DNA from: Pseudomonadota bacterium
GTDB taxonomy: Bacteria > Desulfobacterota > Desulfobacteria > Desulfobacterales > Desulfobacteraceae
Length of the DNA stretch: 45,143 bases
Assembly (NCBI GenBank): GCA_018821715.1
Contig: JAHJLN010000434.1
Coordinates: 1 to 45,143 of the forward strand
Direction: 5' to 3'
Both the position numbers and the translations under genes were made by a program. The notes under the pieces were generated by a model, which made no database searches, was not told the origin of the DNA, and saw only the letters and a list, made by a program, of their open reading frames with translations. Below, in pieces: positions 903 to 38,023 of this stretch. How positions within the stretch are numbered: position 1 is the first letter of the stretch; each line of letters opens with the position of its first letter.

Positions 903-904
903 AA

Positions 905-5062: not shown

Positions 5063-5073
5063 CTTTCTTCTCC

Positions 5074-17545: not shown

Positions 17546-17561
17546 CGGCATGTTACTTGCT
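17546..17561 (+). promoter_or_regulatory. Sigma-54 promoter for receiver-CBS gene
   Basis: CGGCATGTTACTTGCT has the exact ten-base GG-to-GC spacing, a perfect TTGCT and one mismatch at the first base of the -24 part. Estimated start near 17572, leader of about 57 bases to the ATG at 17629. Confidence 0.73.
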
Positions 17562-17628
17562 GTTACTATGTATAAAACAATGCAATCGATTTTGCTGGAT
17601 TAATCGGATAATAATGGAGGCAAACAAC

Positions 17629-18534: not shown

Positions 18535-18544
18535 CTTTCAGTAT

Positions 18545-19441: not shown

Positions 19442-19571
19442 CTCTTACCTCCTTGTTTTATACGATAAAAACAATTTTCATTTGGGTCAAAACAGCCTGG
19501 TGAATTAGCGGGCAGGTCTGCAAAAAATCTCCAGACTGTTTTGATTGTGGCGGTAAAAACCGGCACACGCT

Positions 19572-20474: not shown

Positions 20475-20518
20475 GTGTTTTACCTCCAAATTATTCATTG
20501 TTCTGCCGGGGCATCTTC

Positions 20519-21040
20519 CTATTTAAGAAAAGCCAAATAAAGGGAATATAATAAAAGGAACTGAACCATTATCGTTAACAACAGAATCAGCACTGCGGGC
20601 TTGAATGCAAGCCGGCTGGTATTTTTAAGCCCGGTATAAACCAGCCACCATTTCCACGGTTCGGTAAACCAAAGGAAAAATGACATCCAGGATACCAAAA
20701 GAACCATACCTGAAGAAAATGCATAAACGCCGAACAGCACTTCAAAACGGGATTTCTTTCCGATTGTCATCACCATTATCATATAACTTAAGCCGGCTGA
20801 AATAAACACCATGCCGACACTGCTGAAAAAGAAAATAGATCCCATCTTTACAGGGCTGGGATAATTCCCGGTAAACAGATTTGCCATTGCAAAGAAAATG
20901 CTGCAGATCATGCAGAATCCCAAAGATTTTACCCCTGTTGTATTATTTGGCAATTCCGTAAAAAACCGTCTGGGTTCTATCAGGATCTGAATCACTGCAT
21001 ATCCATAGAATTGACAGGATTTTAAAACATTCCCAACCAT
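20519..21040 (-). CDS. Yip1-like integral membrane protein
   Basis: The 173-residue protein has about five hydrophobic segments. The N-terminal VIQILIEPRRFFTELPNN and the later WWLVYTGLKNTSRLAFKP resemble Yip1-family proteins of bacteria (proline-containing amphipathic start, then GL between helices). Function of bacterial members is not established. It sits between the small protein at 21088 and the receiver-CBS gene at 19572, within the second DASS operon. The ribosome site before 21040 is weak, suggesting translational coupling or low expression. Confidence 0.65.
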   Translation of the reverse strand: MVGNVLKSCQFYGYAVIQILIEPRRFFTELPNNTTGVKSLGFCMICSIFFAMANLFTGNYPSPVKMGSIFFFSSVGMVFISAGLSYMIMVMTIGKKSRFEVLFGVYAFSSGMVLLVSWMSFFLWFTEPWKWWLVYTGLKNTSRLAFKPAVLILLLTIMVQFLLLYSLYLAFLK

Positions 21041-21087
21041 TTTTCATATTCCATTTTTTATCATGATGAATGACATCCATAATCTTA

Positions 21088-21258
21088 TTATGCTGATGGC
21101 CAGAAGCTTTTTAATTTTACAAATATCCCGGCCAGAAGCATTCCCATTGTCATAAAAAATAAAATCCTTCGTTCAAGTTCTTTTGAAAAATAGACTTTTC
21201 CATCTTTACATTTGAACCTGCCGGGCCGACCCTTTTTTAAATTACTGAATTCTTTCAT
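21088..21258 (-). CDS. Small single-span membrane protein, DASS-associated, unknown
   Basis: The 56-residue protein has a basic N-terminus (MKEFSNLKKGRPGRFKCKDG) and one hydrophobic segment at about residues 31-50 (RILFFMTMGMLLAGIFVKL). The start at 21258 is chosen because AGGAG lies 7 bases upstream; longer in-frame starts overlap the preceding gene and lack a site. It begins 13 bases after the DASS stop and may be an accessory subunit of the transporter. I know of no named homologue. Confidence 0.65.
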   Translation of the reverse strand: MKEFSNLKKGRPGRFKCKDGKVYFSKELERRILFFMTMGMLLAGIFVKLKSFWPSA

Positions 21259-21271
21259 ATCCATTCTCCTG

Positions 21272-23119
21272 TCAGAATCCGGAAAGCCCGCCAAACCCCC
21301 TGAAAATCCAGTATACGGCGGTTAAAAGAATTAAAACAATATTGGCGACAAAAAACATGGGAATGCCTACTCTGAGAAAGTCTTTGGGCTCAAGATAACC
21401 GCTGGCATAAACAATCGCATTGGGAGGCGTTCCGATAATCAGGCAATATGCAAAAGATGAGGCAATTGCCGTAGACATGGCCATAAAGGGCAAAAATGTA
21501 GTTCCAGGATGAACCAGTCCTGCCATGTTCAGGGTAATGGGACCGACAGCTGCCGCAGCAGGACCGTCTGCCATCAGGTTTGTTAAAATTGCAGTCATCC
21601 CGTTACTGACCACCATCAACGGGATACCGGCTTCCATACCAAATGGTGCCAGAAAATCAATAACAGATCTGGCAAGCCAGTAAGCCGCTCCTGTGCTGTC
21701 CAGAACCCTTCCAAAAATAATGGCGCCGGCATAAAGCCATACAACGCCCCAGTCTACTTTTTCCTGGTAATCCCGCCAGTTGACCACTCCTGTCAGGATA
21801 TACGCCACGGCACCGGCAACGGCAAGAACCCCTATTCCCGTCCGGATGGGATAGATACCCATATCATAGAAGGCTTTTTCCGTGAACCAGCCAAATACCA
21901 TGATAATAAAAATGATCAGGGCCCAAATCTGCTGTCTGCTCCAGCCCCCCATTTTATCAATTTCTGTTTTTAATTGCTCCATGGCCGGGGCCAAAGAAAC
22001 AATACGGGGTTTAAATCTGAAATTGGTCATAATCCAGGTCACCGGGATCATAATGAACAAAAAAGGGAAACAATAGGTCACCCATTGAAAATATCCGATA
22101 TCAAATCCAAACATATCGGTCAGATAGGTCATCATTATCACATTCCTGGCACCGCCGGAAGGGGCACCGGGCCCGCCGATATTGCACGCCATGGCAATAG
22201 TGATCATCAACATTTTTGCAAGTTCTTTGTCTTCAGGCACCTCTTTTGTCAGACTGTTCTGATATAAAAGCATCCCAATAGGAAGGAACATGGCTGCCAG
22301 GGCATGATCGGATATAAATGCGGCCAGAGGTGTTATGATCAGAAAAAAAATCAGGGTAATCCATTTCACATTCGGTACGGCCAGCTTCTTGAACATCATC
22401 AGGCAAACCCGCTTATCCACACCGGTTTTTACAAAAGCCGCAGCAAACATCAGACTGCCCATGATAAACCAGCAGGCATCACTCCAATAGAGCATGGCCA
22501 CTTCTTCTCGTCCGACAACCCCGGTGAAAACAAGGATCAGCCCTATACAGAATGCGACCGCAGGAAGAGGGATGCACTCGGTTAAAAAACACCCCACAAC
22601 AAAAATACCCATGGCAATGGCCACTTTTATATGCCAGGCTCCTTTGTCAGCAGATTTTCTATCCTTTTCCGAAAGGTCTTCATATTTTAATCCTGTTTTC
22701 CTTAGCTCCAATGCTTTTTGCATGATGAACAGGAACTGCTCTTCAGATACGTTTGTCTTCACATACTCATGCGCTTTATCAAAATTTTTCTGATCCGTTT
22801 CTATTCCATATTTTTTACACCATTTTAGGTCCCGTTTAAGAAATCTGGGTTTTTTCAAAGCGCCGATCTGCATGTTTTGTTCCATCATCTTTGCTGCGAT
22901 AAGTTCCCATTGTTGTGCATCAGAACTGGCCTTATTGAAAAGCACTGTGGTGAAATGATTAATAACGGCCTTAGGGCCGACATTGTATTCCATACCAACA
23001 TCCTTCATGCCATACGGCGTTGGTATAAACAGCACTGCAAAAAAAAGGACTACCGGAATGATTAAAATCTTCCAGTTAACATATTTATCATATCCGGTTA
23101 CTTGCTTTGTTTTTTTCAT
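21272..23119 (-). CDS. DASS/SLC13-family anion:Na+ symporter with a long N-terminal extracytoplasmic domain
   Basis: The 615-residue protein has a first membrane segment at about residues 15-31, then about 130 hydrophilic residues (GMEYNVGPKAVINHFTTVLF and on, ending DLSEKDRKSADKGAWHI) and a transporter core of about a dozen segments. Core marks are NIGGPGAPSGGARNV, LTNLMADGPAAAAVGPIT and the signature GTPPNAIVYASGYLEPKDFL. It is a paralogue of the protein at 2573 but about 90 residues longer, mostly in the N-terminal insert. AGGAG precedes the ATG at 23119. It follows a kinase and receiver, in the same order as in the first cassette. The substrate (dicarboxylate, sulfate or similar) cannot be read from the sequence. 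Confidence 0.9.
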   Translation of the reverse strand: MKKTKQVTGYDKYVNWKILIIPVVLFFAVLFIPTPYGMKDVGMEYNVGPKAVINHFTTVLFNKASSDAQQWELIAAKMMEQNMQIGALKKPRFLKRDLKWCKKYGIETDQKNFDKAHEYVKTNVSEEQFLFIMQKALELRKTGLKYEDLSEKDRKSADKGAWHIKVAIAMGIFVVGCFLTECIPLPAVAFCIGLILVFTGVVGREEVAMLYWSDACWFIMGSLMFAAAFVKTGVDKRVCLMMFKKLAVPNVKWITLIFFLIITPLAAFISDHALAAMFLPIGMLLYQNSLTKEVPEDKELAKMLMITIAMACNIGGPGAPSGGARNVIMMTYLTDMFGFDIGYFQWVTYCFPFLFIMIPVTWIMTNFRFKPRIVSLAPAMEQLKTEIDKMGGWSRQQIWALIIFIIMVFGWFTEKAFYDMGIYPIRTGIGVLAVAGAVAYILTGVVNWRDYQEKVDWGVVWLYAGAIIFGRVLDSTGAAYWLARSVIDFLAPFGMEAGIPLMVVSNGMTAILTNLMADGPAAAAVGPITLNMAGLVHPGTTFLPFMAMSTAIASSFAYCLIIGTPPNAIVYASGYLEPKDFLRVGIPMFFVANIVLILLTAVYWIFRGFGGLSGF

Positions 23120-23147
23120 GTTTCACTCTCCTGTAGCAATGTTTGTT

Positions 23148-23600
23148 TTATTCAGTGTCATCTTTGAGAATTTCGCGGGGAGATCTCATGTATTTCTTGC
23201 CTTGAGCAATCCGGATTTTTTCTTCAATCTTTTGACGCTTTTCAAATGCCGCTATTGCCTTTTCTAAAATTTCATCTATATCGGCAGGTTTCATCAGATA
23301 GTCACAGGCACCTGATTTCAGGCCGTCAATTGCTGAATCCACAGTGGCATGACCTGTCAGCATAATAACTTCCACCAGGGGATAAAGCGTCTTGATTGCT
23401 TTTAACGTCTCGTTTCCATCCATCCCGGGCATCTTGACATCAAGGATGACCACATGGATATTCTTGATTTTTAGTAGTTCAAGGGCTTGTTTTCCGCTTT
23501 GGGCGGTTAGAACCTCAACCCCTTTTTTTTCAATCAGTTTTTTGGTTGTTTGAAGATACCGTTCTTCATCATCAACCAGCATGATCTTCATCTTTTCCAC
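23148..23600 (-). CDS. Response regulator, receiver domain only
   Basis: The 150-residue receiver has DDEE at residues 10-13, phosphoacceptor D54 (VVILDVKMPGMDG), MLTGHATVDSA and CDYLMKPADIDE, followed by a charged tail (KRQKIEEKIRIAQGKKYM). There is no output domain. The start is a GTG at 23600, supported by GGAGG 6 bases upstream; the internal ATG is too far from it. It lies between the kinase and the DASS gene and is very similar to the receiver at 4631, which follows the paralogous kinase. Confidence 0.92.
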   Translation of the reverse strand: MEKMKIMLVDDEERYLQTTKKLIEKKGVEVLTAQSGKQALELLKIKNIHVVILDVKMPGMDGNETLKAIKTLYPLVEVIMLTGHATVDSAIDGLKSGACDYLMKPADIDEILEKAIAAFEKRQKIEEKIRIAQGKKYMRSPREILKDDTE

Positions 23601-23623
23601 AGCAACCCTCCGTAATTTTTAAA

Positions 23624-25330
23624 TTAATTTACAGCCGGCAGACGGATAATAAATGTCGTGCCGACACCTGGTTCACTTTTTACCGCCATTGTTCCGCCAA
23701 AACTTTTTATGATCCCGTAACAAACAGAAAGCCCTAACCCGGTTCCTTTCCCCACTGGCTTTGTGGTAAAAAACGGCGAAAATATTTTTTTAATATTTCC
23801 CGGGCTGATACCGGTTCCATTGTCTGTTATTTTTATGGCAATAAAATTTTCATTTTCTTTACAAGACTCTATTTTCAGCATACCTCCGGATGATCCATGC
23901 CGCTCTGCAATAGCATCCATTGCATTATTAAAAAGATTGAGCAGCACCTGCTGAAACTGGGATGGATCGCCCATGAAATCAGCACAATTTTCTGAAAGAT
24001 TGATTGCGATTTCAATACCATTGACATTGGCCTTTTTTTCAATCATATGAATTATCTCCGGTATGATATGGCATGGGCTCAATACCTGCTGTTTTGTCTC
24101 ATTTTTTCGTCCGAATTTTAAAATCGCATGGGTAATTTGAGAACACCTGTTCACCTGAAGTTTTATCTGGTCCAATGACTCCTCAATTTCTTTCATATCT
24201 TCATTTTTTCCAGCATCGATATTACCGGATATATCTTCTAAAAGGGTTTCAATAAGGGCCTGTTCATTTTTAATAATTTGAAGGGGATTGTTTATTTCAT
24301 GGGCAAATCCAGCTGCCATCTCTCCGATTTCCGCCAGCTGAGCTGCCCGAATAAGCTGATTTCCAAGGTTTTCTTTTTCCTGCCCCAATTGTTCGATTCT
24401 TTTAAGTATCCGCTCCGTCATATAAACCGCCATAACGATGATGACTGCTCCGCCGATGATCATGATGATCAGACTGATGTACAAGGCTGAATACAACGAT
24501 TTATAGGCATCTTTTTTTTCCTGTCTGACCACCAGAAGCCACTCTTTGTTCTTAAGCCAGGTTGTTGCATATAGATATTTGTTTTTTGCATCATCAGCGG
24601 CAATAAAGGTATGAATACTGTCACCGGTTGGCGGGAAACCGGAATATTCAAGATCTTTATCCATGACCCTGATATCTCCGGAACGCCTCTGGGTCTGAAA
24701 AATCCCTGCCTTATTAAGAATGTAAGATTCTCCTGTCCTTCCGATCCTTACTTTTGATATCATCCTGTCAAAAAATAAGGTATCAATGGTTGCCCTCAGC
24801 ACCCATGTTTTCTTTCCACTGCTCTGTCGCACCGCAATCACAAAATGGGGGATGTTTCGATAGCCTAAAAAAATATCACTGACATGGGATCCATTTTGCA
24901 TAACCTCTTTGAACCACAATTCCTGTGTATATTTTTTCCCCTGCAGCTCATACTTACCCGAATACCTGACATGAACCCCATTTGAATCAAAAAGACCCAG
25001 ATCAACAAACGCACCCGACCGCTTTTTTAAGTTTTCAAATATTATGTTAATAGATTCTTTTTGATTGATCTGTTCAAAATTGAAGGTGTTGGTAATAAGG
25101 TCAAGATCGGATTTTCGTTCCATTAAAAAGGACTCTATCATGTCACGATGATCACCAACGATTCGTTTTAAGCTGCTGGTGGTATTACTCTCAAGTGCAG
25201 TAGTAAAATAATAAAAACTGACCCCGATGGCCAATATAAAAGGAACAAACGGAACGATGATCATATTGGTTAAAATGGAGTGTTTAACCTGTTCTCCTCT
25301 TTGTTCATGCTTTTGATTTTTCTTGTTCAT
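23624..25330 (-). CDS. Membrane histidine kinase with dCache-like sensor
   Basis: The 568-residue kinase has membrane segments at about residues 24-45 and 283-303, a periplasmic double-Cache-like domain (LWFKEVMQNGSHVSDIFLGY, IGRTGESYILNKAG, EWLLVVRQEK), a HisKA helix with H344 in GFAHEINNP and a HATPase_c domain (NLFNNAMDAI, DNGTGISPGN, GKGTGLGLSV). Shared pieces with the kinase at 5074 include SDIFLG/SDVFAG and IPHFVIAV/HPHFIIAV, so the sensors probably recognise related ligands. The ATG at 25330 is preferred; a TTG 12 bases earlier abuts the only AAGGG. It is the first gene behind the sigma-54 element at 25393-25408. Confidence 0.92.
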   Translation of the reverse strand: MNKKNQKHEQRGEQVKHSILTNMIIVPFVPFILAIGVSFYYFTTALESNTTSSLKRIVGDHRDMIESFLMERKSDLDLITNTFNFEQINQKESINIIFENLKKRSGAFVDLGLFDSNGVHVRYSGKYELQGKKYTQELWFKEVMQNGSHVSDIFLGYRNIPHFVIAVRQSSGKKTWVLRATIDTLFFDRMISKVRIGRTGESYILNKAGIFQTQRRSGDIRVMDKDLEYSGFPPTGDSIHTFIAADDAKNKYLYATTWLKNKEWLLVVRQEKKDAYKSLYSALYISLIIMIIGGAVIIVMAVYMTERILKRIEQLGQEKENLGNQLIRAAQLAEIGEMAAGFAHEINNPLQIIKNEQALIETLLEDISGNIDAGKNEDMKEIEESLDQIKLQVNRCSQITHAILKFGRKNETKQQVLSPCHIIPEIIHMIEKKANVNGIEIAINLSENCADFMGDPSQFQQVLLNLFNNAMDAIAERHGSSGGMLKIESCKENENFIAIKITDNGTGISPGNIKKIFSPFFTTKPVGKGTGLGLSVCYGIIKSFGGTMAVKSEPGVGTTFIIRLPAVN

Positions 25331-25392
25331 AACACGATTCAACCCTTAAATGAATTCAACACATTGACCCGAATGCCCTTCATGACTCTAAG

Positions 25393-25408
25393 AGCAACTA
25401 TGATGCCG
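25393..25408 (-). promoter_or_regulatory. Sigma-54 promoter for kinase-receiver-DASS operon
   Basis: On the minus strand CGGCATCATAGTTGCT has exact GG-N10-GC spacing and a perfect TTGCT; two less conserved positions of the -24 part differ. Estimated transcription start near 25382, leader about 52 bases to the ATG at 25330. Confidence 0.7.
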
Positions 25409-25445
25409 CATGAATTTTAAATGGCGTTAAAACAGACAACCAACT

Positions 25446-25475
25446 GAAATATTAAGAAATATTAAGAAATATTAA
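25446..25475. repeat. Three perfect tandem copies of GAAATATTAA
   Basis: The unit is 10 bases long and contains the palindrome AATATT, so each copy presents the same face of the helix about once per turn. It lies 38 bases upstream of the -24 element at 25393-25408. A protein-binding or DNA-bending role is inferred; short AT-rich repeats can also arise by slippage. Confidence 0.8.
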
Positions 25476-25599
25476 TTCGAAAGAATAAATAGACGATCTG
25501 AATAATATAAAATTGTATCAGTATTTTTTACACATTGTAAAAAGTAAGCACAGCTTTAATTGAATAAAGATAAGACAAAAAGGCTTATCACTTCATTTG

Positions 25600-25627
25600 T
25601 TGACAACGGCTTGGTTTTCCTTAGAAT
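25600..25627 (+). promoter_or_regulatory. Sigma-70-type promoter for kinase/NtrC operon
   Basis: TTGACA at 25600-25605 is a perfect -35 box; TAGAAT at 25622-25627 matches five of six -10 positions, with a 16-base spacer. The kinase ATG follows at 25678, preceded by a GAGAAAGG ribosome site. This is the best housekeeping-type promoter seen in the window. Confidence 0.75.
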
Positions 25628-25677
25628 AGACCTTGTGCGCTTTTTTTAGTTTTTATTCATTTGAGAAAGGTTTATAA

Positions 25678-27333
25678 ATGAATTTCGAAAGACTCAGGAT
25701 ACTTCTGATCATTGCATTCATGCTTGTTTCACTGGTGCCCATGGCCTCACTCGGATACAAATTGATATCCCAGGGAGAAACCCTGATTCAAGAAAAAGCA
25801 TCCTCCTACTTAACGGGTTTGGCCCAAAGAAATGCTGATGCCATAAAAGAATTCATGGAGGAAAGACAAAATGACATGAGCAACCTATCCAATATGATCT
25901 GCCTATTTGGCCTTGATACCACACTGCTTAAACTGCAGTTTAAACAGATGGAGGGTCAGTTCAAACCCTATCTTGCTTTTTTTGTACAGGACAAATCCGG
26001 AAAACATGTTTTCTCAACCCTTGAAAATCCACTTGATCCGCTGCCGATTCATTCTACTGACAAATCAGGAGGTTCATTACGGGAAATAAGTGTTAAGGAT
26101 ATTTTCATGTTTACCAATGGGTCAGAACAAATTCCCGCTCTTATGATTTGCACCCCCCTATTGAATAAATCTAAAGAAAATTGCGGGCACTTATGTGCTC
26201 TGGTTGATTTCAGACTTGTTGGTTTACTGCTGAAAAAAAGCAATATCGAAGTTACCGGTGAGGTCTATCTGGTAGATAAAAACGGCAGATTTCTATCTGC
26301 ATCACGCTTTGGAGCAAAAGCGCTCAAAGACCGCATCTCTTTAATCGCCATTACAGGGAAAGAACATGGACTCCATGAAATAGCAGATTATAGAGGGGAG
26401 CGTGTGTTGCAGGCATATCAGAAAGTGGATGATTTCCCGTGGTATGTTATGGCTGATCAGGACATGGCGGAAATCTTGAACCGTATCAAGGCCCTGGGAA
26501 GGGAGGCTATTGTTTATGGCATGCTGACGGCAATGGTTGTTTTCGCCCTTGCTCTTTTTATTTCAACACTTATTGTAAATATTTTAAAAGCCAAATACCA
26601 GTATGAAAAAGAGCTTGAATTTCAAGTCATTCAAAAAGAAAAACTGGCATCCCTTGGCCTTTTGACTTCAGGGATAGCCCATGAATTAAATACACCGCTT
26701 GCCAATGCATTGCTATATACCCAGATTGCCAAAGAAGAACTGAATGAACCCGGAATCCAAATTCAAACAATTCAGCAAAGGCTTTCCACAGTCGTGGATG
26801 AAGTCAGGCAGGGAAGCAAAATCATAAGAAACCTTCTTGATTTTTCCCGGCATAATCAAAACGATTCACAAACAACAAATGTCAATAAAACCCTGACAAA
26901 ACTGATGGGAATAGCCGGTCCCCACTGCTCATCCAACAAAATTAAAGTAGAAACAGAGCTTGAAAAAGACATGCCGGATATAAAAGCGGATGCCAGCACC
27001 CTGCAGGCCATATTGACAAACCTTGTAGCCAATGCAATTGAGGCCATGCCAAAAGGGGGAAATTTGAGATTAAAAACCCGTTATGTACCGGTTTTAAAAA
27101 CAATAAAAATTGAAATTGCAGATTCAGGACCGGGAATTCCCAAAAAAGAGCTTATTCAAATATTCAACCCGTTTTTTACGACTAAAAAACCGGGAGAAGG
27201 AACAGGCCTTGGTCTTTTTGTCAGCCATGAAATGATAAGGAAATTGGGTGGTGATATCAAGGTCATCAGTTCAACCGGGGAAGAGTCCATTCAACATGGA
27301 ACAATTTTCACCATTGAATTACCCATTGAATAA
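25678..27333 (+). CDS. Membrane histidine kinase, partner of the NtrC-type activator
   Basis: The 551-residue kinase has membrane segments at about residues 8-27 and 278-302, a periplasmic dCache-like domain (GHLCALVDFRLVGLLLKKSN, GEVYLVDKNGRFLSASRFG, FPWYVMADQDMAE), a HisKA helix with H335 in GIAHELNTPLAN and a HATPase_c domain (NLVANAIEAMPKGG, DSGPGIPKKEL, GEGTGLGLFV). The HELNTPL H-box differs from the HEINNP boxes of the DASS-linked kinases and is common in NtrB-like kinases. The activator gene starts 26 bases after it, so the pair forms a complete sigma-54 control system. The signal is unknown. Confidence 0.93.
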   Translation: MNFERLRILLIIAFMLVSLVPMASLGYKLISQGETLIQEKASSYLTGLAQRNADAIKEFMEERQNDMSNLSNMICLFGLDTTLLKLQFKQMEGQFKPYLAFFVQDKSGKHVFSTLENPLDPLPIHSTDKSGGSLREISVKDIFMFTNGSEQIPALMICTPLLNKSKENCGHLCALVDFRLVGLLLKKSNIEVTGEVYLVDKNGRFLSASRFGAKALKDRISLIAITGKEHGLHEIADYRGERVLQAYQKVDDFPWYVMADQDMAEILNRIKALGREAIVYGMLTAMVVFALALFISTLIVNILKAKYQYEKELEFQVIQKEKLASLGLLTSGIAHELNTPLANALLYTQIAKEELNEPGIQIQTIQQRLSTVVDEVRQGSKIIRNLLDFSRHNQNDSQTTNVNKTLTKLMGIAGPHCSSNKIKVETELEKDMPDIKADASTLQAILTNLVANAIEAMPKGGNLRLKTRYVPVLKTIKIEIADSGPGIPKKELIQIFNPFFTTKKPGEGTGLGLFVSHEMIRKLGGDIKVISSTGEESIQHGTIFTIELPIE

Positions 27334-27358
27334 TTTTTACTACAAAACCGGAGACTTG

Positions 27359-28714
27359 ATGAAAGCATATAAAATTTTAATTGTTGAAGATGATCAAAAA
27401 ATGAATCAGGGGTTGGTATATGTCATTTCAAAAGAAGGCTATGCTACGGAATCGGTTGATTCCGGGGAAAAAGCCCTTGAAAAGATCAAGAACACTCAAT
27501 TCGATTTAATCATATCAGACTTAAAGCTTCCCGGCATTGACGGAATGGAGCTGTTGAAAGCCGCAAAAAGATATGATGCCGACATCCTTTTTATCATGAT
27601 CACCGCATACGGCACGGTCGACACAGCTGTTTCAGCCATGAAACAGGGTGCAGAAGATTATATTTTAAAGCCCTTTGATATGGAAGAGTTGAGGCTTGTC
27701 GTTAAAAAAACCATGGAAAAACGGGAATTGTTTTTAAACAATATCCGTTTACAGCAGCAACTTAAAAAAAAATATACCTTTGAAAATATCATTGGAACCA
27801 GTGAAACAATGATGGCGGTCTTTAAAACCATCAACCATGTCAAGGATTCAAAGGCAACCGTCCTTATTCGCGGAGAAACCGGCACAGGAAAAGAACTGGT
27901 TGCAAGAGCGCTGCACTTTAACAGCGACAAAGCGGCAAAACCCTATCTTCCCGTAAACTGCGCCGCCCTCAATGAAAACCTTCTGGCAAGCGAATTGTTT
28001 GGTCATGTAAAAGGGGCATTTACCGGTGCAGTGTCTGACAAGAGAGGACTATTTGAAGCGGCTGACGGCGGGACCATATTTCTTGATGAAATAGGGGATA
28101 TCGGACCAGGACTCCAACAGACATTTCTGCGGGCATTGGAAAACGGGGAAGTACAACCGGTTGGCTCCTTTGAAAGGAAAAAAGTTCTGGTACGAATCAT
28201 TGCCGCGACAAATAAAGACCTTGAGGCAATGGTTGAAAAAGGCGGTTTTAGAAAAGATCTGTATTACAGGCTGAATGTGGTTATAATTGATTTGCCGCCT
28301 TTAAGAGATCGCAAAGGAGATATTGGAATACTGGCCTATCATTTTTTAAAGCAGTACTCTGTTCAAAACAATAAAAGCATAAACCGTATTTCTCAAGAGG
28401 TTCTGAGACTGTTGGAAAATTATCATTGGCCCGGAAATGTCAGGGAACTTGAAAATATAATCGAAAGGGCAACACTGTTTGAAGTCAGTGGTGAAATCAC
28501 AAAGGACAGCCTCCCGTCTGCCTTGACAAAACCCCCTTTCGTTTCAGACGCAAAATCCGGTTCCAAAGATATAAAATCTCTGGAACAATTAAGCAAAAAC
28601 CATATTTTAAATGTTCTGGAAATGACCAATCAAAACAAAACACAGGCATCAAAATTATTGGGAATCGACAGATCCACCCTGTGGCGTATAATGAATCGCC
28701 TGGAAATGAACTAA
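27359..28714 (+). CDS. NtrC-family sigma-54-dependent response regulator
   Basis: The 451-residue protein has a receiver (DD at 11-12, phosphoacceptor D54 in LIISDLKLPG, DYILKPFDMEE), an AAA+ domain with Walker A GETGTGKE (172-179), the sigma-54 contact loop GAFTGA (219-224), Walker B TIFLDEIGD, and a C-terminal Fis-type helix-turn-helix (KTQASKLLGIDRSTLWRIMN). All parts needed for ATP-driven opening of sigma-54 promoters are present. The start at 27359 is chosen because GGAG lies 6 bases upstream; an earlier in-frame start would overlap the kinase by over 80 bases. A strong terminator follows. Its targets are probably among the six sigma-54 elements in this window. Confidence 0.96.
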   Translation: MKAYKILIVEDDQKMNQGLVYVISKEGYATESVDSGEKALEKIKNTQFDLIISDLKLPGIDGMELLKAAKRYDADILFIMITAYGTVDTAVSAMKQGAEDYILKPFDMEELRLVVKKTMEKRELFLNNIRLQQQLKKKYTFENIIGTSETMMAVFKTINHVKDSKATVLIRGETGTGKELVARALHFNSDKAAKPYLPVNCAALNENLLASELFGHVKGAFTGAVSDKRGLFEAADGGTIFLDEIGDIGPGLQQTFLRALENGEVQPVGSFERKKVLVRIIAATNKDLEAMVEKGGFRKDLYYRLNVVIIDLPPLRDRKGDIGILAYHFLKQYSVQNNKSINRISQEVLRLLENYHWPGNVRELENIIERATLFEVSGEITKDSLPSALTKPPFVSDAKSGSKDIKSLEQLSKNHILNVLEMTNQNKTQASKLLGIDRSTLWRIMNRLEMN

Positions 28715-28986: not shown

Positions 28987-29436
28987 ATGGAAAAGAATAT
29001 TTTTGGAAATTTAAATGACTGGGGACCTGTTCTGGAAAAATTGGAAAAACTGTCACAAAGCCGGGAACTTGGCAATTGTCAGGATGAATTGATCCGCCTG
29101 CTTCGTTTTGACCAGAACTGGCGCCTGCGAGAAGCTGCAATTGAATCTTTGCCGTTTATCGAGAATCCCGGCCTTAATCTGGCAAGGGAAGTCATTTCAT
29201 TAATCAAACGAAAGGATCTCTATTATGATGTCAGAATCCTGGCAACAGACGGCCTTGAAAAACTGGCAGCCGCTATTGTTAACAACAGAGGATTTGACAA
29301 AGATATTTTAAAACAATTTGTTCAGGAAATCATAAAAGACATGAATACGTTGCTGGCCTCACCTGAACCGCCGAAATTCCATGATGCATTACGAAACTCA
29401 ATGAATCAGGTCAAAAATATTGAAGCTGCCATTTAA
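28987..29436 (+). CDS. Small HEAT-repeat-like helical protein
   Basis: The 149-residue protein is predicted all-helical. Residues about 35-95 look like two HEAT-type helix pairs (DELIRLLRFDQNWRLREAAI, YYDVRILATDGLEKLAAAIV), the kind found in scaffold or regulatory proteins. No signal, membrane span or catalytic motif is visible. GGAGG lies just before the ATG at 28987. It is the first gene of the operon with pntAa-pntAb-pntB and gdhA, so it may assist or regulate the transhydrogenase; this is inference from position only. Confidence 0.75.
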   Translation: MEKNIFGNLNDWGPVLEKLEKLSQSRELGNCQDELIRLLRFDQNWRLREAAIESLPFIENPGLNLAREVISLIKRKDLYYDVRILATDGLEKLAAAIVNNRGFDKDILKQFVQEIIKDMNTLLASPEPPKFHDALRNSMNQVKNIEAAI

Positions 29437-30659: not shown

Positions 30660-30677
30660 ATTTTGGAGAACAAACCA

Positions 30678-30974
30678 ATGACAAATCTTTTACTGCTGGC
30701 AGGGGTTTTCGGGTTTTCCTTTGTGGTGGGATATTTTCTGATTTCAAGAATTCCCACATTGCTGCATACCCCGTTGATGTCCATGACAAATGCCATCTCT
30801 GCCGTCACCATACTGGGGGTTTTGATTCTTTTTTCCGTCGCATCAACCAGGACTGAGCAGATCATCGGATCAGTAGCTTTTGTCATGGCCGCTTTCAACC
30901 TTGTGGGGGGATTTGCGATTACGGACAGGATGTTAAGGCTGTTTAAGAAAAAACAAGCGGAGGCCAAAAAATAA
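30678..30974 (+). CDS. pntAb: NAD(P) transhydrogenase alpha subunit, part 2 (membrane)
   Basis: The 98-residue protein has three to four hydrophobic helices (LLLLAGVFGFSFVVGYFL, AISAVTILGVLILFSVAS, IIGSVAFVMAAFNLVGGFAI) and ends in a basic tail (DRMLRLFKKKQAEAKK). This is the short membrane piece that joins PntAa and PntB in enzymes with a split alpha subunit. The ATG at 30678 with GGAG upstream is used; a TTG 15 bases earlier overlaps that site. Its stop overlaps the pntB start by one base (TAATG). Confidence 0.93.
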   Translation: MTNLLLLAGVFGFSFVVGYFLISRIPTLLHTPLMSMTNAISAVTILGVLILFSVASTRTEQIIGSVAFVMAAFNLVGGFAITDRMLRLFKKKQAEAKK

Positions 30975-32962
30975 TGACTGAAACATACTCTGCCATGAAT
31001 CTGTTCGCAGATTTTTGTGTCATCGCTATCCTTATCCTGGGAATCTGGTTGTTTCGCTGGCCTCACAGGGCAAAGTTCGGCAACCTGACGGCGGCATTTG
31101 CATTAGCCTGCGCCGCAGGCCTGGTTTTGTATCGAAACGGCACCCTGTACCCCAACATAGTGCTGTTATCTCTTGTGGCAGGTTCTGCCGCAGGGTTCTG
31201 GGTTGCCAAACGAATTACCATGATTCAGATTCCGGCCATGGTTGCCTTTCAGCACGGTGCCGGGGGGATTGCCGCCTTTTGCCTGTCCCTTGCCGAACTC
31301 ATGCGGGGATCTCAACACCTTGGAATGATGAATGAAATTTCCGGTCTTTTAGGCCTTGCTATCGGGTCATTGACGTTCAGTGGCAGCATGATCGCAGGAG
31401 GAAAACTGTCAAACAAACTAGGACAGACCCCTAAAATACTTTGGAAGCATACCTGGCTTGTCATGATAACCCTTGCCTGCATTATCGCACTGATGATTAC
31501 ATCGCTGTATGCGCCCACAGGCAGCAGGATACTCTTTTATATTCTCATTATTTTGATGTCGGTTCTGTTTGGTGTTATTTTTTCCATTCGTATCGGCGGA
31601 GCTGACATGCCTGTGTTGATTTCATTCTTAAACGCAACCGCAGGAATTGCGGCTGCGTTTTGCGGCATGATCATTGAAAACAAGCTGCTGATTTCCTGCG
31701 GGGCCACAGTGGCTGCTTCAGGATCAATACTGACCCATGTCATGTGCAAAGGTATGAATCGCAGTCTTTTCAGGGTTTTTGTTCCTGTGAATGAATCCCG
31801 GCTCAAACCGGCAATAAAGAATGAGCAAAAACGGGTTGCAGGTTTTGTTGAAACAAAAGACCCGCATCACCCCATTGAAAAAAATAACTTTCAAACCGCA
31901 GTTGAATTTGCCCGTAAGGCAAATAAAATCATTATTGTTCCCGGCTATGGCATGGCAGTGGCCCAAGCACAGTTTGACGTAATTAACTTTTCGAACAAAC
32001 TGCTTTCCATGGGCAAGGATGTGAAATTTGCCATTCATCCGGTTGCAGGAAGAATGCCCGGGCACATGAATGTGCTTCTGGCTGAAGCGGGTGTTGACTA
32101 TGATCTGCTGGAAGAAATGGATGCCATAAATCCTGAATTCAAGGCAACCGACCTTTCCCTGATTATCGGGGCGTGCGATGTGGTTAATCCGGCTGCCATT
32201 GAAGTTGACGGCTCACCCATTTCCGGCATGCCGATTTTGCTTACCCATGAATCAAAGCATGTTGTGTGCTGTAATCTGGATGATAAACCCGGATACTCTG
32301 GTGTTAAAAATCCTTTATATGAAAACAGCAATACAATCCTGCTTTTGGGAAACGCTAAAGACACTGTGGGGCAACTTGTTGAAGCTCTTTTAGAGACTTC
32401 CCCAGCTATTGAAGGTTCTTCAAATCAAGACACCCCAAAAGGACTATTGAATTCTGCTATAATTGCATTGTCATCGGCCAAAAAGGTTATTGTAATTCCC
32501 GGATATGGCATGGCTCTGGCACAGGCGCAGTTCAAGGTGGTTGAACTCGCATCAATCCTTGAATCAATGGGGGCACAAGTAAAATTTGCCATTCATCCGG
32601 TTGCAGGAAGAATGCCCGGGCACATGAATGTACTTCTAGCTGAAGCAGAAGTCGATTATGACAAGCTTTGTGAAATGGATGACATCAATCCTGAATTTTC
32701 ACAAACAGACGTTGTTCTTGTCTTTGGTGCCTGCGACGTAGTGAACCCGTCGGCAATAGATATCCAAGGCACGCCTATTTCCGGGATGCCTATACTGATG
32801 GCCCATGATGCAAAAAGCATCATCATCTGCAATTTTGATGAAAAGCCGGGCTATTCCGGAGTGGCGAACACCTTATACAACAATCCTAAAACAATAATGA
32901 TGCTGGGCGATGCCGCATCAACGGCAAATGTTTTAATTGGTGCATTAAAGGCAAAAAATTGA
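30974..32962 (+). CDS. pntB: NAD(P) transhydrogenase beta subunit with duplicated NADP(H)-binding domain III
   Basis: Residues 1-270 are the membrane domain II (eight or nine helices; AFQHGAGGIAAFCLSLAEL, FLNATAGIAAAFCGM). Typical PntB then has one domain III and ends near 460 residues. This 662-residue protein has two, offset by exactly 186 residues: copy 1 about 300-480 (PGYGMAVAQAQ from 323, HPVAGRMPGHMNVLLAEA, GACDVVNPAA, KPGYSGVKNPLY) and copy 2 about 485-662 (PGYGMALAQAQ from 509, the same HPVAGR segment, GACDVVNPSA, KPGYSGVANTLY). Both keep all nucleotide-binding motifs, so both could bind NADP(H). They diverge elsewhere, so this is not a recent sequencing duplication. The enzyme couples proton flow to NADPH formation, fitting the gdhA gene that follows. 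Confidence 0.95.
   Translation: MTETYSAMNLFADFCVIAILILGIWLFRWPHRAKFGNLTAAFALACAAGLVLYRNGTLYPNIVLLSLVAGSAAGFWVAKRITMIQIPAMVAFQHGAGGIAAFCLSLAELMRGSQHLGMMNEISGLLGLAIGSLTFSGSMIAGGKLSNKLGQTPKILWKHTWLVMITLACIIALMITSLYAPTGSRILFYILIILMSVLFGVIFSIRIGGADMPVLISFLNATAGIAAAFCGMIIENKLLISCGATVAASGSILTHVMCKGMNRSLFRVFVPVNESRLKPAIKNEQKRVAGFVETKDPHHPIEKNNFQTAVEFARKANKIIIVPGYGMAVAQAQFDVINFSNKLLSMGKDVKFAIHPVAGRMPGHMNVLLAEAGVDYDLLEEMDAINPEFKATDLSLIIGACDVVNPAAIEVDGSPISGMPILLTHESKHVVCCNLDDKPGYSGVKNPLYENSNTILLLGNAKDTVGQLVEALLETSPAIEGSSNQDTPKGLLNSAIIALSSAKKVIVIPGYGMALAQAQFKVVELASILESMGAQVKFAIHPVAGRMPGHMNVLLAEAEVDYDKLCEMDDINPEFSQTDVVLVFGACDVVNPSAIDIQGTPISGMPILMAHDAKSIIICNFDEKPGYSGVANTLYNNPKTIMMLGDAASTANVLIGALKAKN
32024..32073 (+). 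repeat. 50-base direct repeat in pntB, copy 1
   Basis: Identical to 32582-32631. It encodes the KFAIHPVAGRMPGHMN part of the first domain III. The separation of 558 bases equals 186 codons, so recombination between copies would remove exactly one domain III in frame. Confidence 0.95.
32582..32631 (+). repeat. 50-base direct repeat in pntB, copy 2
   Basis: Second identical copy, in the second domain III. The surrounding bases of the two domains differ at many third positions, so this island of identity points to strong selection on the segment or to gene conversion between the domains. Confidence 0.95.
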
Positions 32963-33007: not shown

Positions 33008-34357
33008 ATGGATAATATATTGGATATTGTCTTTGCAAAAGACCCCTTTGAAAAAGAATTCCATCAGGCAGTAACAGAAGTTGTTGACTCCATAAAACCA
33101 GTTCTGGACAGGAATTCTGAATACCGGCATGCCGGCATTATGGAAAGAATTATCGAACCGGAACGTGTAATTTTGTTCAGAGTACCCTGGGTGGATGATC
33201 AGGGTACCGTCCGGGTCAACAGAGGATTCAGAATCCAAATGAACAGTGCTATAGGACCTTACAAAGGCGGTCTTCGATTCCATCCTTCTGTAAACCTTTC
33301 TATTTTGAAGTTTCTTGCCTTTGAACAGATATTTAAAAATGCATTGACCACTCTCCCCATTGGTGCTGGAAAAGGTGGTTCAGACTTTGACCCCAAAGGT
33401 AAATCAGACAGCGAGGTTATGAGATTCTGTCAGAGCTTTATGTGCGAACTTTTTCGTCACTTAGGCCCTGACACGGATGTTCCCGCAGGGGACATAGGTG
33501 TTGGTGCAAGAGAGATCGGCTATCTGTTCGGTATGAATAAAAAATTAACAAATGATTTTTCAGGTGTTCTGACCGGGAAAAGTCTTAACTGGGGCGGAAG
33601 CCTGATCAGACCTGAAGCAACCGGTTATGGTTCGGTCTTTTTTGCCGAGGAAATGCTGGCAACCCGAAAAGAAAGCCTTAAAGATAAAGTCTGCCTGGTT
33701 TCAGCTTCTGGTAATGTGGCCCAGTACACTGTTGAAAAATTAAACCAGTTGGGAGCTAAGGTTGTCACACTCTCTGATACTTCAGGATACATTTATGATG
33801 AAAAAGGAATTGATCAAGACAAACTTCAATATGTCATGTACCTGAAAAATGGAAAGCGCGGCAGGATCAAAGAATATGTCCAAAAATATCCCGAAGCGGT
33901 TTATACCGCACTTGATGGCTCATTAGATTACAACCCGATATGGAACCATAAAGCAGACTGTGCTTTCCCAAGTGCGACCCAGAATGAAATCAATGCCAAG
34001 GATGCCCAGAATATGATAAATAACGGTGTTTATGTGATCAGTGAGGGCGCGAATATGCCGACCATGCCGGAAGGTGTTGATATCTTCCTTGACAACAAAA
34101 TTCTCTATGCACCGGGGAAAGCAGCCAATGCCGGGGGTGTTGCCGTATCCGGGCTTGAAATGTCCCAGAACTCAATGAGAATCAAATGGCCCCGCAACGA
34201 AATGGAGACCAAACTCAAAAGTATCATGCAAAGTATTCATTCAACATGTCTTTCTGCTTCAGAAGAATATGGGACCCCTGGTAACTATGTCAATGGTGCC
34301 AATATTGCCGGATTTATTAAAGTGGCGGATTCAATGATGGATCAGGGTATTGTTTAA
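33008..34357 (+). CDS. gdhA: Glutamate dehydrogenase, hexameric, probably NADP-specific
   Basis: The 449-residue protein has the bacterial small GDH length and motifs: K86 in PYKGGLRFHP, K110 in FEQIFKN and the catalytic K122 in GAGKGGSDFDPKGKSD, then PAGDIGVGAREIGYLFG, a Rossmann fold (VSASGNVAQYTVEKLNQLGA) and NAGGVAVSGLEMSQNS. It makes glutamate from 2-oxoglutarate, ammonium and NAD(P)H. Location behind the transhydrogenase genes, 45 bases after pntB, suggests NADPH is supplied by PntAB. The nucleotide loop is SGN-A rather than the usual GSGNVA, so cofactor choice is not proven. AGGAG precedes the ATG at 33008 and a terminator follows. A broken paralogue is at 37088. Confidence 0.96.
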   Translation: MDNILDIVFAKDPFEKEFHQAVTEVVDSIKPVLDRNSEYRHAGIMERIIEPERVILFRVPWVDDQGTVRVNRGFRIQMNSAIGPYKGGLRFHPSVNLSILKFLAFEQIFKNALTTLPIGAGKGGSDFDPKGKSDSEVMRFCQSFMCELFRHLGPDTDVPAGDIGVGAREIGYLFGMNKKLTNDFSGVLTGKSLNWGGSLIRPEATGYGSVFFAEEMLATRKESLKDKVCLVSASGNVAQYTVEKLNQLGAKVVTLSDTSGYIYDEKGIDQDKLQYVMYLKNGKRGRIKEYVQKYPEAVYTALDGSLDYNPIWNHKADCAFPSATQNEINAKDAQNMINNGVYVISEGANMPTMPEGVDIFLDNKILYAPGKAANAGGVAVSGLEMSQNSMRIKWPRNEMETKLKSIMQSIHSTCLSASEEYGTPGNYVNGANIAGFIKVADSMMDQGIV

Positions 34358-34454: not shown

Positions 34455-35789
34455 CTATTTTAATTTTTTTAACAGGGTTTTCCTGTCAATTTTTAAAATT
34501 TCAAGGGCTTTTGCTTTATTTCCGCCTGTCTGTTCAACAACATCCCTGACATATTTTTTTGACATATCTTCAAGGCTGAGATTCAACGGCTGACCACAGG
34601 AGATGGTATATTTCATTATGTCAGGAAAATTCACGCTGTCTATATAATCGGTTTCATTCATGATCAGATTTCGATGAATAAGATTTTCAAGCTCCCTGAC
34701 ATTGCCGGGCCAGTAATATTTTTTTAGCGCAACGATTGCCTTATCTGTAAAGACCGGCTCTTCTTTTCCAAGCTCTTTGGCATACTTTAATGCAAAATGC
34801 TGGGCAAGAAGAATGATATCATTTTCTCGGTCCCTTAGAGGAGGAATATCGATGTTGATGACATTTAAACGAAAAAACAAATCCTGGCGGAACAGTTTTT
34901 TTTCAATAAGATCTTCCAAATTTTTATTGGTAGCTGCAATAATTCGGACATCAATTTTTTTAAATTGGGTTTCTCCAACCCTGGTGATTTCTTTTTCCTG
35001 TAAAACCCTGAGCAGCTTGGCCTGGAGTTCAAGCGGCAGTTCACTGATTTCATCTAAAAAAAGGCAGCCTTTTTCTGCTGCCTGAAAAAAGCCTTTTCTG
35101 TTTTGTATCGCACCTGTGAAAGCCCCCTTTACATGGCCGAATAATTCACTTTCAAAAAGGCTTGCAGGGATTCCCGGACAATTTATGGGAATAAACGGAT
35201 AAATCGATCTTACCTTGTGGCTGTAGTGAATTGCACGAGCCACCAGTTCTTTTCCTGTACCGTTTTCTCCATTTATTAAAACAATTGCATCGTTTTTGCA
35301 GGCTTTTTCAATCCTGGAATACACGTCAAGCATCTTTGGGGAATGACCCATAATGCCGAACCGGGTCCAGGCATCATTGTATAAACTTTTTGGGTCGATT
35401 TTCTTTGCTTTTCGTTGCCAAATGTTTTTTTTAACGGCATCAAGAAGTTCCTTGTCTGTAAACGGTTTGGTAATATAATCATCCGCCCCTTCTTTCATGG
35501 CTGAAATGGCACTGTTAATGGACCCGTATCCGGTCAGCATGATAATACAGATATCCTGGAAATGGTCCCGGACATATTTTATCAGTTCAAGACCCGAATG
35601 TTTCGGCATTTTATAATCAGTGATCAAAAGATCAATTTTCTGTCTTGAAAAAATCTGGACGGCATCAGCCACACTGTGAGCCTTAAACACATGGAATCCT
35701 GCTATTTCAAGATTTCTTTGTATCACTTCGCAAGTTATGACATTATCATCAACAATGAGAATGACGTCTTTGCCATATGGGGTTGTCAT
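34455..35789 (-). CDS. NtrC-family sigma-54-dependent response regulator
   Basis: The 444-residue protein has a receiver (DD at 14-15, phosphoacceptor D58 in LLITDYKMPK, DYITKPFTDKE), an AAA+ domain with Walker A GENGTGKE (174-181), GAFTGA (222-227) and Walker B LFLDEISEL, and a C-terminal Fis-type helix-turn-helix (KAKALEILKIDRKTLLKKLK). The ATG at 35789 overlaps the kinase stop by one base (TGATG) and has GGAGG 7 bases upstream; a TTG at 35792 is too close to that site. It converges with gdhA and lies next to the gdh pseudogene, so control of glutamate dehydrogenase promoters is a reasonable guess. Confidence 0.95.
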   Translation of the reverse strand: MTTPYGKDVILIVDDNVITCEVIQRNLEIAGFHVFKAHSVADAVQIFSRQKIDLLITDYKMPKHSGLELIKYVRDHFQDICIIMLTGYGSINSAISAMKEGADDYITKPFTDKELLDAVKKNIWQRKAKKIDPKSLYNDAWTRFGIMGHSPKMLDVYSRIEKACKNDAIVLINGENGTGKELVARAIHYSHKVRSIYPFIPINCPGIPASLFESELFGHVKGAFTGAIQNRKGFFQAAEKGCLFLDEISELPLELQAKLLRVLQEKEITRVGETQFKKIDVRIIAATNKNLEDLIEKKLFRQDLFFRLNVINIDIPPLRDRENDIILLAQHFALKYAKELGKEEPVFTDKAIVALKKYYWPGNVRELENLIHRNLIMNETDYIDSVNFPDIMKYTISCGQPLNLSLEDMSKKYVRDVVEQTGGNKAKALEILKIDRKTLLKKLK

Positions 35790-36976
35790 CAATTTTCCTC
35801 CAAAGGCAAATAAATCTCAAAAATAGTTCCTTTACCCGGTTCACTGCTGACTTTAATGTCTCCATTATGGTTCTTGATAATTCCATAAACAACAGAAAGA
35901 CCTAATCCTGTGCCTTCACCAACATCCTTAGTTGTAAAAAAGGGCATGAATGTTCTGCTGATATTTTCACCGGGTATTCCGATTCCAGTATCTTCAACGC
36001 AAAGAATCGCATTTTTACTATTCTTTTTTGTAGAGAATATCAAATTCCCGCCATTTTTCATTGCCTGAATAGCATTGATCGTCAAATTCGTAATGACCTG
36101 CTTGATTTGATTGGGATCAGCTGTAACGGTTATGGTCTCAGCATATTTTTTTACAATACTGATTCCCTCCTTGATGCATCTTGCTTCTAAAAAGGTGATA
36201 CTGTTATCAATCACTTCATTAAGATTAATTGGCTCTTTGCATAATGGTGATTCTCGGGAAAATTCCATTAATTTTTTTATGATTCCCCTTGAATATATAA
36301 CACAATCTTCAATCTTGGACAGGTCTTTTTGTGCTTGTTCCGGCATGTTGGACAATTTTAATGACAATTGCGCCAGACCCAGAATATTTCCCAGCGGCTC
36401 GTTCAATTCGTGGGCGACGCCTGCAGCAAGCTGCCCTATGGTTGCCAGGCGATCAGCATGCAAAAGCTGTTGCTGGATAACTTTTCGTTTTTCATCATCC
36501 CTTAGCTTTTTCATATAAAAACTGATAATATTTGCAATCCCCTTCAGCAGATTTCTTTCTTCAATAAGAAAAGGATTCTTTGATTCCAGTGCCAGCCTTG
36601 GGTGATAAAAAACTTCTATAGCCCCCACGATCTGCCTGTCAATTGAAATATTCTCTTTTTGGCATACACTGGACTCAAAAAAGACAGGTGACAAAAATTT
36701 CTTTTCCATGAAACAAATACGGGCGCAGGAGTCTTTTGGGTATTGCCATCCTTGTGGAATAATACGGACAATTCTATCCAATGCCACATCCACATTTGTT
36801 TCCATCACCACACATTGGGCAACCTGATACAGACAGTTAAGCTCTTTTATCCTCTCTTCCTCATTACGGCAGACCCTCTTATACTCATCATAAAACCGCT
36901 GTAGTTTAAGATTTTGTTTTTGGAGTTTTTTAATCAGTTGCTGCTGTTTCTCAACTTCGATGTCTATGGGTTTCAT
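35789..36976 (-). CDS. Soluble histidine kinase with coiled coil and GAF-like sensor, partner of NtrC-type activator
   Basis: The 395-residue protein has no membrane segment. Residues 5-45 form a coiled coil (VEKQQQLIKKLQKQNLKLQR), 45-155 a GAF-like sensor (ELNCLYQVAQCVVMETNVDV, IVGAIEVFYHPRLALESKNP, LLKGIANIISFYMKKL), then a HisKA helix with H189 in GVAHELNEPLGN and a HATPase_c domain (NLTINAIQAMKNGG, DTGIGIPGEN, GEGTGLGLSVVYGI). Several cysteines in the GAF-like part (C55, C84, C88, C105) could mean redox or metal sensing, but this is speculative. It overlaps the downstream activator gene by one base. The ribosome site is weak. Confidence 0.92.
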   Translation of the reverse strand: MKPIDIEVEKQQQLIKKLQKQNLKLQRFYDEYKRVCRNEEERIKELNCLYQVAQCVVMETNVDVALDRIVRIIPQGWQYPKDSCARICFMEKKFLSPVFFESSVCQKENISIDRQIVGAIEVFYHPRLALESKNPFLIEERNLLKGIANIISFYMKKLRDDEKRKVIQQQLLHADRLATIGQLAAGVAHELNEPLGNILGLAQLSLKLSNMPEQAQKDLSKIEDCVIYSRGIIKKLMEFSRESPLCKEPINLNEVIDNSITFLEARCIKEGISIVKKYAETITVTADPNQIKQVITNLTINAIQAMKNGGNLIFSTKKNSKNAILCVEDTGIGIPGENISRTFMPFFTTKDVGEGTGLGLSVVYGIIKNHNGDIKVSSEPGKGTIFEIYLPLEEN

Positions 36977-37087: not shown

Positions 37088-38006
37088 TCAAGATAATCCC
37101 TGGTCGAGCATGGCATCTGCCACACGCCGGAATCCGGCAATATTTGCCCCCTCTACAAGGCATTTGACATTATTTTTTACCAATGTCATTGCATCATCAA
37201 GGCTAAGTTCGTTTTGTGTTGCACAAGGAAATGCAATATCGCACGGGATTATCCATGGCCGTTTCCCCGGATAAAATTTTACCTTAAAATGATCTGCATA
37301 TTCTTTTACAACATCATTTCCGCTCAACCTGAGTTTCAGCATATAATCAATTTTTTCACCGGTAACACCATCGGGATCATGGATGAATCCATCAGGACCT
37401 GAAAGCGTTATGACTTTGCCGCCAAGCTCGTTGACCTTTTTTACAACCCCCCAGGCCACATTTCCAAAACCGGAAACCGTCACAACCTTACCCTTAATAT
37501 TGTCATCAACATTTTTCAGCATTTCCTCGGCAAAACAAACAACACCATATCCTGTGGCCTCGGGCCTTAAATATCTTCCTCCCCATGCAAGACCTTTCCC
37601 TGTCAATACGCCTTTAAACGACTTGGTCATTCTGCGGTACATGCCAAACAAATAACCGATTTCCCGTGCGCCTACACCGATATCACCGGCAGGAACATCA
37701 GTGGACGCGCCAATGTGTCTTGAAAGTTCCAACATAAAACTTTGACAAAAATTCATTATTAAACTCAACCCGATGCCCGGTATTGACTTGTACCCGGCCC
37801 TGGTCATCTTTCCACGGCACCCTGAAACTGATGGATCGGTCCGGTTCAACCAGTTGCTCAAGTATCCGGTTGTCCTGATACTCTTGATTAACATCCAGAA
37901 CCGGTGCAATGGATTTAAAAACTTCTGCCACGGATTGAATGTATTCCTTTTCCCAGGGATATTTTTCCCTGAGCATTTCCAAAACATTGTTTGTATACGC
38001 GTTCAT
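37088..38006 (-). pseudogene. Glutamate dehydrogenase pseudogene with two internal deletions
   Basis: The N-terminal part (ATG at 38006 with GGAG; EKEYIQSVAEVFKSIAPVLD) aligns with the intact GdhA until VEFNN, near 37760. The next recognisable residues, in another frame, are NFCQSFMLELSRHIGASTDV: about 58 residues are missing, including all three active-site lysines (K86, K110, K122 of the intact copy). The rest (PAGDIGVGAREIGYLFGMYR, VTVSGFGNVAWGVVKKVNEL) is well kept up to VEGAN, where the sequence jumps to IAGFRRVADAMLDQGLS: about 83 residues between the two GAN motifs of the intact protein are gone in frame, near 37145. The nucleotide loop is a standard GFGNVA, unlike the intact copy. No active enzyme can be made. 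It is co-transcribed with the Cys-rich gene from a sigma-54 promoter. Confidence 0.9.
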
Positions 38007-38023
38007 GAAGTTCTCCAAGGCTA

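Follow-up and report, generated by a model that had tools for sequence, protein, structure and literature searches.

A transhydrogenase beta subunit with two tandem domains III and an altered coenzyme loop in Desulfobacterales

Introduction

Why would a proton-translocating transhydrogenase carry its nucleotide-binding domain III (dIII) twice in the same chain? The question is raised by a pntB gene on contig JAHJLN010000434.1 of assembly GCA_018821715.1 (Desulfobacterota; Desulfobacteria; Desulfobacterales; Desulfobacteraceae), of which we analysed a stretch of 45,143 nt, called the window below. One dIII per beta chain is the pattern of proton-translocating transhydrogenases, and the window PntB has two. 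In known enzymes, dIII turns between domains I and II, and both dIII cannot face domain I together (PMC5742237). Current models of this proton pump hinge on how the dimer shares its two dIII and on their alternation between the two other domains, and enzymes that naturally have two, three or four dIII, together with a chimera described below, offer direct tests of alternation, stoichiometry and linker length in coupling. Residue numbers called E. coli positions refer to E. coli PntB or, for domain I, to the corresponding part of the E. coli alpha subunit.

Results

Two complete domains III in one chain

The pntB gene belongs to a run on the forward strand that comprises a small HEAT-like gene, pntAa, pntAb, pntB and gdh (Table 1), and it is the only PntB gene found in its assembly (5.73 Mb, 447 contigs, 95.7% complete). 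It begins with ATG and has no internal stop. The product matches the Pfam family PNTB (PF02233) with 711.4 bits, against a gathering cut-off of 31.7, in two stretches, and PGYGMA recurs at residues 323 and 509, an offset of exactly 186 residues that appears in the DNA as a repeat spacing of 558 nt. Open reading frame, Pfam match and motif positions thus agree with the original prediction, which placed two domains III in tandem at this offset and its listed motifs in both.

Table 1. Features of the transhydrogenase locus, in window coordinates.
Feature	Position	Strand	Basis or remark
Small protein gene ("HEAT")	28987..29436	+	Precedes pntAa; 15 loci have a homologue upstream of pnt
pntAa, domain I (NAD site), 389 aa	29490..30659	+	Retains equivalents of R120, Q125, D128 and D195; Glu for K261
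pntAb, first membrane helices of domain II	30663..30974	+	PNTB_4TM match
pntB, 662 aa, one domain II and two tandem dIII	30974..32962	+	Open reading frame, Pfam, motif positions
Domain II, membrane part, residues about 1-270	30974..31783	+	Has the equivalents of H91, S139, D213, N222 and R265
Arg206 (E. coli position 208), mark of the NxD type	31589-31591	+	Alignment
dIII copy 1, residues about 303-473	31880..32392	+	Motifs, alignment, model
Asn434-Leu435-Asp436 for E. coli Lys424-Arg425-Ser426, copy 1	32273..32281	+	Alignment
Linker between dIII copies, residues 474-488	32393..32437	+	Mostly polar or small residues; low model confidence
dIII copy 2, residues about 489-659	32438..32950	+	Motifs, alignment, model
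Asn620-Phe621-Asp622 in KRS motif position, copy 2	32831..32839	+	Alignment
Glutamate dehydrogenase (GDH)	33008..34357	+	Above NCBIfam cut-off for NADP-specific GDH

Each chain contains two complete dIII folds. An AF2 model, built with 16 aligned sequences, gives them the same order of helices and strands; its confidence is modest (mean pLDDT 68, pTM 0.45), and it is silent on the assembled dimer. The 24 best Foldseek matches of this model are transhydrogenase structures. With two intact dIII per chain the dimer would carry four, provided that dimerization proceeds as in other transhydrogenases, and on that condition the suggested change of stoichiometry would hold. The linkers between dIII consist largely of Ala (22%), Ser (12.5%), Pro (11%), Gly (11%) and Glu (10%), with almost no aromatic residues.

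The two window copies are 61% identical in both protein and DNA (ungapped, 171 residues), with 73-75% identity in the best DNA stretches, and 76% of their synonymous sites differ; such divergence means that the doubling is old. Both copies are under purifying selection. In comparisons of the window with four relatives, domain II has dN/dS values of 0.083-0.109, copy 1 of 0.100-0.151 and copy 2 of 0.123-0.152; over all ten pairs the ranges are 0.079-0.275, 0.092-0.172 and 0.059-0.193, respectively. Selection on the two copies, a check proposed along with the original prediction, is therefore similar, and both are constrained.

A coenzyme loop without Lys-Arg-Ser

When 193 dIII from 127 distinct PntB are aligned, the loop at E. 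coli positions 424-426 separates two types. The ordinary or KR type (70 PntB, 71 dIII) has Lys-Arg at 424-425, followed by Ser (67) or Gly (4). The NxD type, or N-type (57 PntB, 122 dIII), has Asn at 424 and, in 121 of the 122, Asp at 426, the lone exception being an Asn in the second copy of L039. Loops D and E set selectivity for NADP over NAD, and KRS 424-426 lies at the NADP site (PMC9529548). Both window copies belong to the NxD type, with NLD and NFD where an NADP(H)-selective dIII has K-R-S(G). A loss of basic residues combined with the gain of an acidic one is the usual direction of change from NADP to NAD. Because KRS is gone and Asn and Asp are conserved in its place, a strong preference of the domain for NADP(H) has probably been lost, and NAD(H) may be preferred. 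The description of both domains as complete and NADP(H)-binding consequently holds for the folds and is in doubt for the coenzyme: a loss of binding residues confined to one copy, which would have spoken against the prediction, is not seen, but the KRS motif is missing from both.

The remaining nucleotide-site residues of dIII (PGYG, HP.AGRMPGH, D392, N395, GMP, G430) are conserved with few exceptions; 8 of the 122 N-type dIII, which are truncated, broken or of different lineages (L028, L035, L047, L180, L178, L095), were dropped from the position table. At position 428, the second residue past the Asp, 101 of the 122 N-type dIII carry Lys or Arg versus 22 of the 71 KR-type dIII, and both window copies are basic there. 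This residue might take over part of the phosphate binding.

Two or more dIII were read in 44 of the 57 N-type PntB and one in 13, among which are two doubles cut by contig ends (L028, L035) and one broken gene (L180). Just one of the 70 KR-type PntB (L093) has two dIII; its existence means that a chain can have doubled dIII without the motif change. A search of open-licence papers found none on repeated dIII or on a transhydrogenase or PntB lacking KRS.

Domains I and II of the NxD type

The residues R120, Q125, D128 and D195 of domain I, which we take from the R. rubrum structures to act in NAD binding, are invariant in 46 N-type and 43 KR-type sequences. A swap of sites, with domain I taking NADP, is unsupported given the invariant D195. 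The change of Lys261 to Glu is found in 84% of the 46 N-type domains I; the human LIPGK loop, which holds the equivalent of this Lys, is predicted to contact NAD (PMC5026163). In domain II, S139, D213, N222 and R265 are invariant in all 57 N-type and 70 KR-type PntB, and the window has H94, S138, D211, N220 and R263 at the proton-path and coupling positions, where H91 or Asn, S139, D213, N222 and R265 are expected. Judged by these residues, domain I would bind NAD(H) and domain II would carry the proton path.

A further mark of the NxD type lies at E. coli position 208 of domain II, which is Arg in 98% of N-type versus Pro in 87% of KR-type PntB. The Arg of the window may face the altered dIII loop, and the chimera L072 has Pro at this position.

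Distribution and copy number

The two-dIII form is widespread in the family and order of the window, and searches of these genomes showed the architecture to be common to a clade, a point that the original prediction had proposed to check. All genome counts are drawn from a sample of public genomes and are biased by query and thresholds toward relatives of the window. A search of 86 genomes of the family gave matches in 33 (E up to 0.001). Two dIII were read in 25 of these, two of which are truncated at contig ends, and a single dIII in three (G008, and G045 and G076, which share one sequence); the other five yield fragments or broken genes. In the order, matches came from 14 of 146 genomes (E up to 1e-60): nine have two dIII, four a single dIII of N-type and one an ordinary PntB. 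In the phylum, 9 of 297 genomes match (E up to 1e-60), the window's own among them; the others comprise two with four dIII, one KR-type double, one N-type single and four ordinary forms.

The four-dIII protein of genome G480 was also used as the query in the class of that genome, a class that we suspect to be Desulfovibrionia. Of 149 genomes, 15 gave a match (E up to 1e-50): nine carry four dIII, one carries three and three have ordinary forms, while one further locus is truncated at a contig end and another is broken. Two genomes, G946 and G1021, each have a second pntB, one gene with four dIII and the other with three (L174, L184, L177, L185). In five four-dIII proteins the copies are 73-96% identical within the protein. 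The four-dIII relatives and the loss of KRS both lay beyond the original prediction, the copy number in relatives not being visible from the window. With E up to 1e-50, matches were also found in 95 of 200 genomes of Gemmatimonadota (the phylum of the seed G228) and 46 of 201 of Chloroflexota (the phylum of the seed G230); in each phylum, loci were readable in 29 other genomes, all of KR-type with one dIII.

Evolutionary history

The NxD type forms one clade by domain III (UFBoot 99-100) and by domain I (UFBoot 100 without L019, 95 in the rooted display with L019). A FastTree phylogeny of 118 N-type and 25 KR-type dIII, with KR-type subsampled and identical sequences removed, likewise has an N-type clade free of KR-type members (SH-like support 0.961). 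Domain II trees do not recover the NxD type as one clade, owing to the chimera L019/L072 of genome G229, in which NxD-type domains I and III are joined to a KR-type domain II. Compared with the ordinary PntB of the same genome (L078), the chimera is 61% identical in domain II and 46% in dIII. That domains I and III sit together on a foreign domain II fits their role as hydride partners, although this is one case. Genome G228 also holds both types (L095, L110).

In the FastTree phylogeny the Desulfobacterales copies 1 group together (0.935), as do copies 2 along with the single-dIII forms L050 and L047 (0.963); a reduced UFBoot tree supports copy 1 as a clade (99) and yields no supported clade for copy 2. 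Clean sister clades of copy 1 and copy 2 were thus found in neither tree, and single-dIII forms fall between. Repeated dIII occur in four lineages that appear to be separate, namely Desulfobacterales, the four-dIII class, Gemmatimonadota L095 and KR-type L093, and homogenization between copies could hide older shared origins. Two lineages (G008; G045 and G076) seem to have reverted to a single dIII, which would make the second copy dispensable there if the assemblies are right.

Comparison with known transhydrogenases

With the PntB of E. coli, R. rubrum and T. thermophilus and with mitochondrial NNT, the window protein shares the order of domains II and III, the PNTB Pfam match, the placement of alpha before beta genes, and the standard motifs (proton-path residues, PGYG, HPVAGRMPGHMN, D392, GY.GV). 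It differs from them in its two dIII per chain, in N-x-D for KRS, in Arg at 208 and in Glu for K261 of domain I. It scores 507.4 bits against NF006974, the NCBIfam equivalog for the Re/Si-specific NAD(P)+ transhydrogenase subunit beta, below the cut-off of 689; the KR-type double P0002 also falls short (671), and the four-dIII protein P0001 passes (907).

The four-dIII PntB (L091/P0001 and those of eight more genomes, in another class) have the N-x-D loop and domain order of the window and Ala/Pro-rich linkers; they differ in having four dIII, or three in some relatives, and in having Asn at 391, which is Cys in the window. The KR-type double (L093/P0002, G401) resembles the window in its two tandem dIII but retains KRS in both, and its copies are 83% identical. 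In domains I and III it is sister to the NxD clade, and its domain II groups with ordinary PntB.

Gene neighbourhood

The original prediction had offered a partner encoded nearby, either GDH or the HEAT-like protein, as a reason for the doubled domain, and neither accounts for it in general. A GDH match within about 0.8 kb downstream of pntB occurs in three distinct loci only, starting 45 bases past the pntB stop in the window and about 0.2-0.8 kb away in the other two. Many loci have too little sequence past pntB to be judged, and no GDH match was seen in loci with at least about 4.5 kb downstream of it, for example L006, L007, L013, L015, L016, L098-L102 and L109. The HEAT-like gene is common near pnt, but it also adjoins two single-dIII forms, L103 and L106, and the search did not find it near L002-L005, L007 and L008 (blastp E up to 1e-4, ORFs of at least 60 aa). 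Its product in the window has no Pfam or NCBIfam match, "HEAT" being the label given with the original prediction.

Discussion

We lean, by a little, toward an NxD-type transhydrogenase in which dIII acts as a nucleotide carrier that has been multiplied on flexible linkers and has acquired a changed, probably NAD-tolerant selectivity. Each dIII would alternate on its linker between docking on domain I, for hydride transfer, and docking on domain II, for proton gating. Four carriers per assembled dimer would then serve two domain I sites and two channels, and a free dIII could exchange or hold nucleotide while another is docked. Why multiplication would be useful is a guess, as single-dIII enzymes are the rule elsewhere. 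Lipoyl domains of 2-oxoacid dehydrogenase E2 likewise sit on flexible linkers. These domains have no homology to dIII and a different chemistry, dIII being without a covalent prosthetic group. Repeated dIII would share a working principle with the repeated lipoyl domains of pyruvate dehydrogenase, but no common descent. The number of lipoyl domains per E2 chain varies (PMC8421416).

Alternatively, the enzyme could use NADP(H) in the ordinary way, with the Asn-x-Asp loop, perhaps aided by the following Lys, binding the 2'-phosphate differently or more weakly and the repeats offsetting weak binding or raising throughput. We regard this as a serious possibility, though one that we would not bet on. 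The GDH encoded directly downstream of the window pntB is of NADP-specific type, which also counts against a changed selectivity, the nucleotide site of dIII is otherwise conserved, and the KR-type double is an instance of doubling without the motif change. The enrichment of basic residues at 428 points the same way, but 21 of the 122 N-type dIII lack one. Moreover, Lys and Arg are gone from 424-425 in every N-type copy, acidic 426 is all but fixed, and NADPH could come from another source, since the genome contains a presumably NfnAB-like pair, for which the GltA model scores above its cut-off. Net chemistry requires two different coenzymes: were NAD(H) used at both sites, no net redox reaction would be left for coupling, an argument that NADP(H) is still used to some extent.

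A more radical proposal takes dIII to bind NAD(H) and not NADP(H), so that two to four mobile carriers would serve a membrane exchanger moving protons during NADH/NAD+ exchange. The dIII of R. rubrum is said, in work on nucleotide specificity by Huxley et al. in 2011, to bind NAD(H) as well, with proton slip possible, and the proposal rests on that statement; we consider it unlikely. The missing net redox reaction, the NADP-type GDH next door and the basic residue at 428, which may bind phosphate, all speak against it. If it were true, the protein would conduct protons under the control of NADH or sense the NADH/NAD+ ratio, in place of making NADPH, a transhydrogenase fold put to a new purpose.

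Somewhat less probable still is a division of labour, suggested in the original prediction, in which one dIII is catalytic and the other is regulatory or senses the nucleotide pool. The copies do have separate signatures in 30 two-dIII proteins (mostly CCNLD versus VCNFD, with differences at E. coli positions 319, 363, 388, 422 and 450), and the dIII kept in both apparent losses is of copy-2 type. Nevertheless, there is no clear sign of such a split in the sequences: neither copy has lost invariant residues or shows relaxed constraint, and the close similarity of copies in the four-dIII proteins is unlike that of specialized domains.

Neutral recombination between repeats, by which the number of dIII drifts and extra copies are tolerated as passengers, would agree with the variable copy number among relatives and with the resemblance of copies inside four-dIII proteins. 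We find it improbable, as both copies are under purifying selection and strongly diverged at synonymous sites, and two dIII are the state of most matching genomes in the family (25 of 33) and order (9 of 14). An assembly duplication, conceivable in a genome of 447 contigs, has next to no chance of being the explanation and was rejected, because the copies are too divergent, the architecture recurs in independent assemblies, and three or four dIII occur in the one-contig genomes G946, G964 and G1021.

A multiplied, NAD-tolerant carrier would mean that this sulfate-reducer enzyme may differ from the textbook transhydrogenase in coenzyme, stoichiometry and coupling. Given the loss of KRS across the NxD type, genes in these bacteria that would probably be annotated as NADPH-producing transhydrogenases may work with a different coenzyme balance, and this would bear on metabolic models of the bacteria.

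The window holds several other features. Genes for response regulators and histidine kinases are numerous at 345-6810, 17494-28714 and 34455-36976, some beside transporters. The pnt genes lie between NtrC-type regulators, and in many relatives such a regulator is found ahead of pnt. At 37088-38018 on the reverse strand is a second glutamate dehydrogenase gene, about 3 kb from the intact gdh; it has SGPDG in place of SDTSG at the coenzyme region, consists of two overlapping ORFs and apparently lacks the central and C-terminal blocks, and it is likely a pseudogene.
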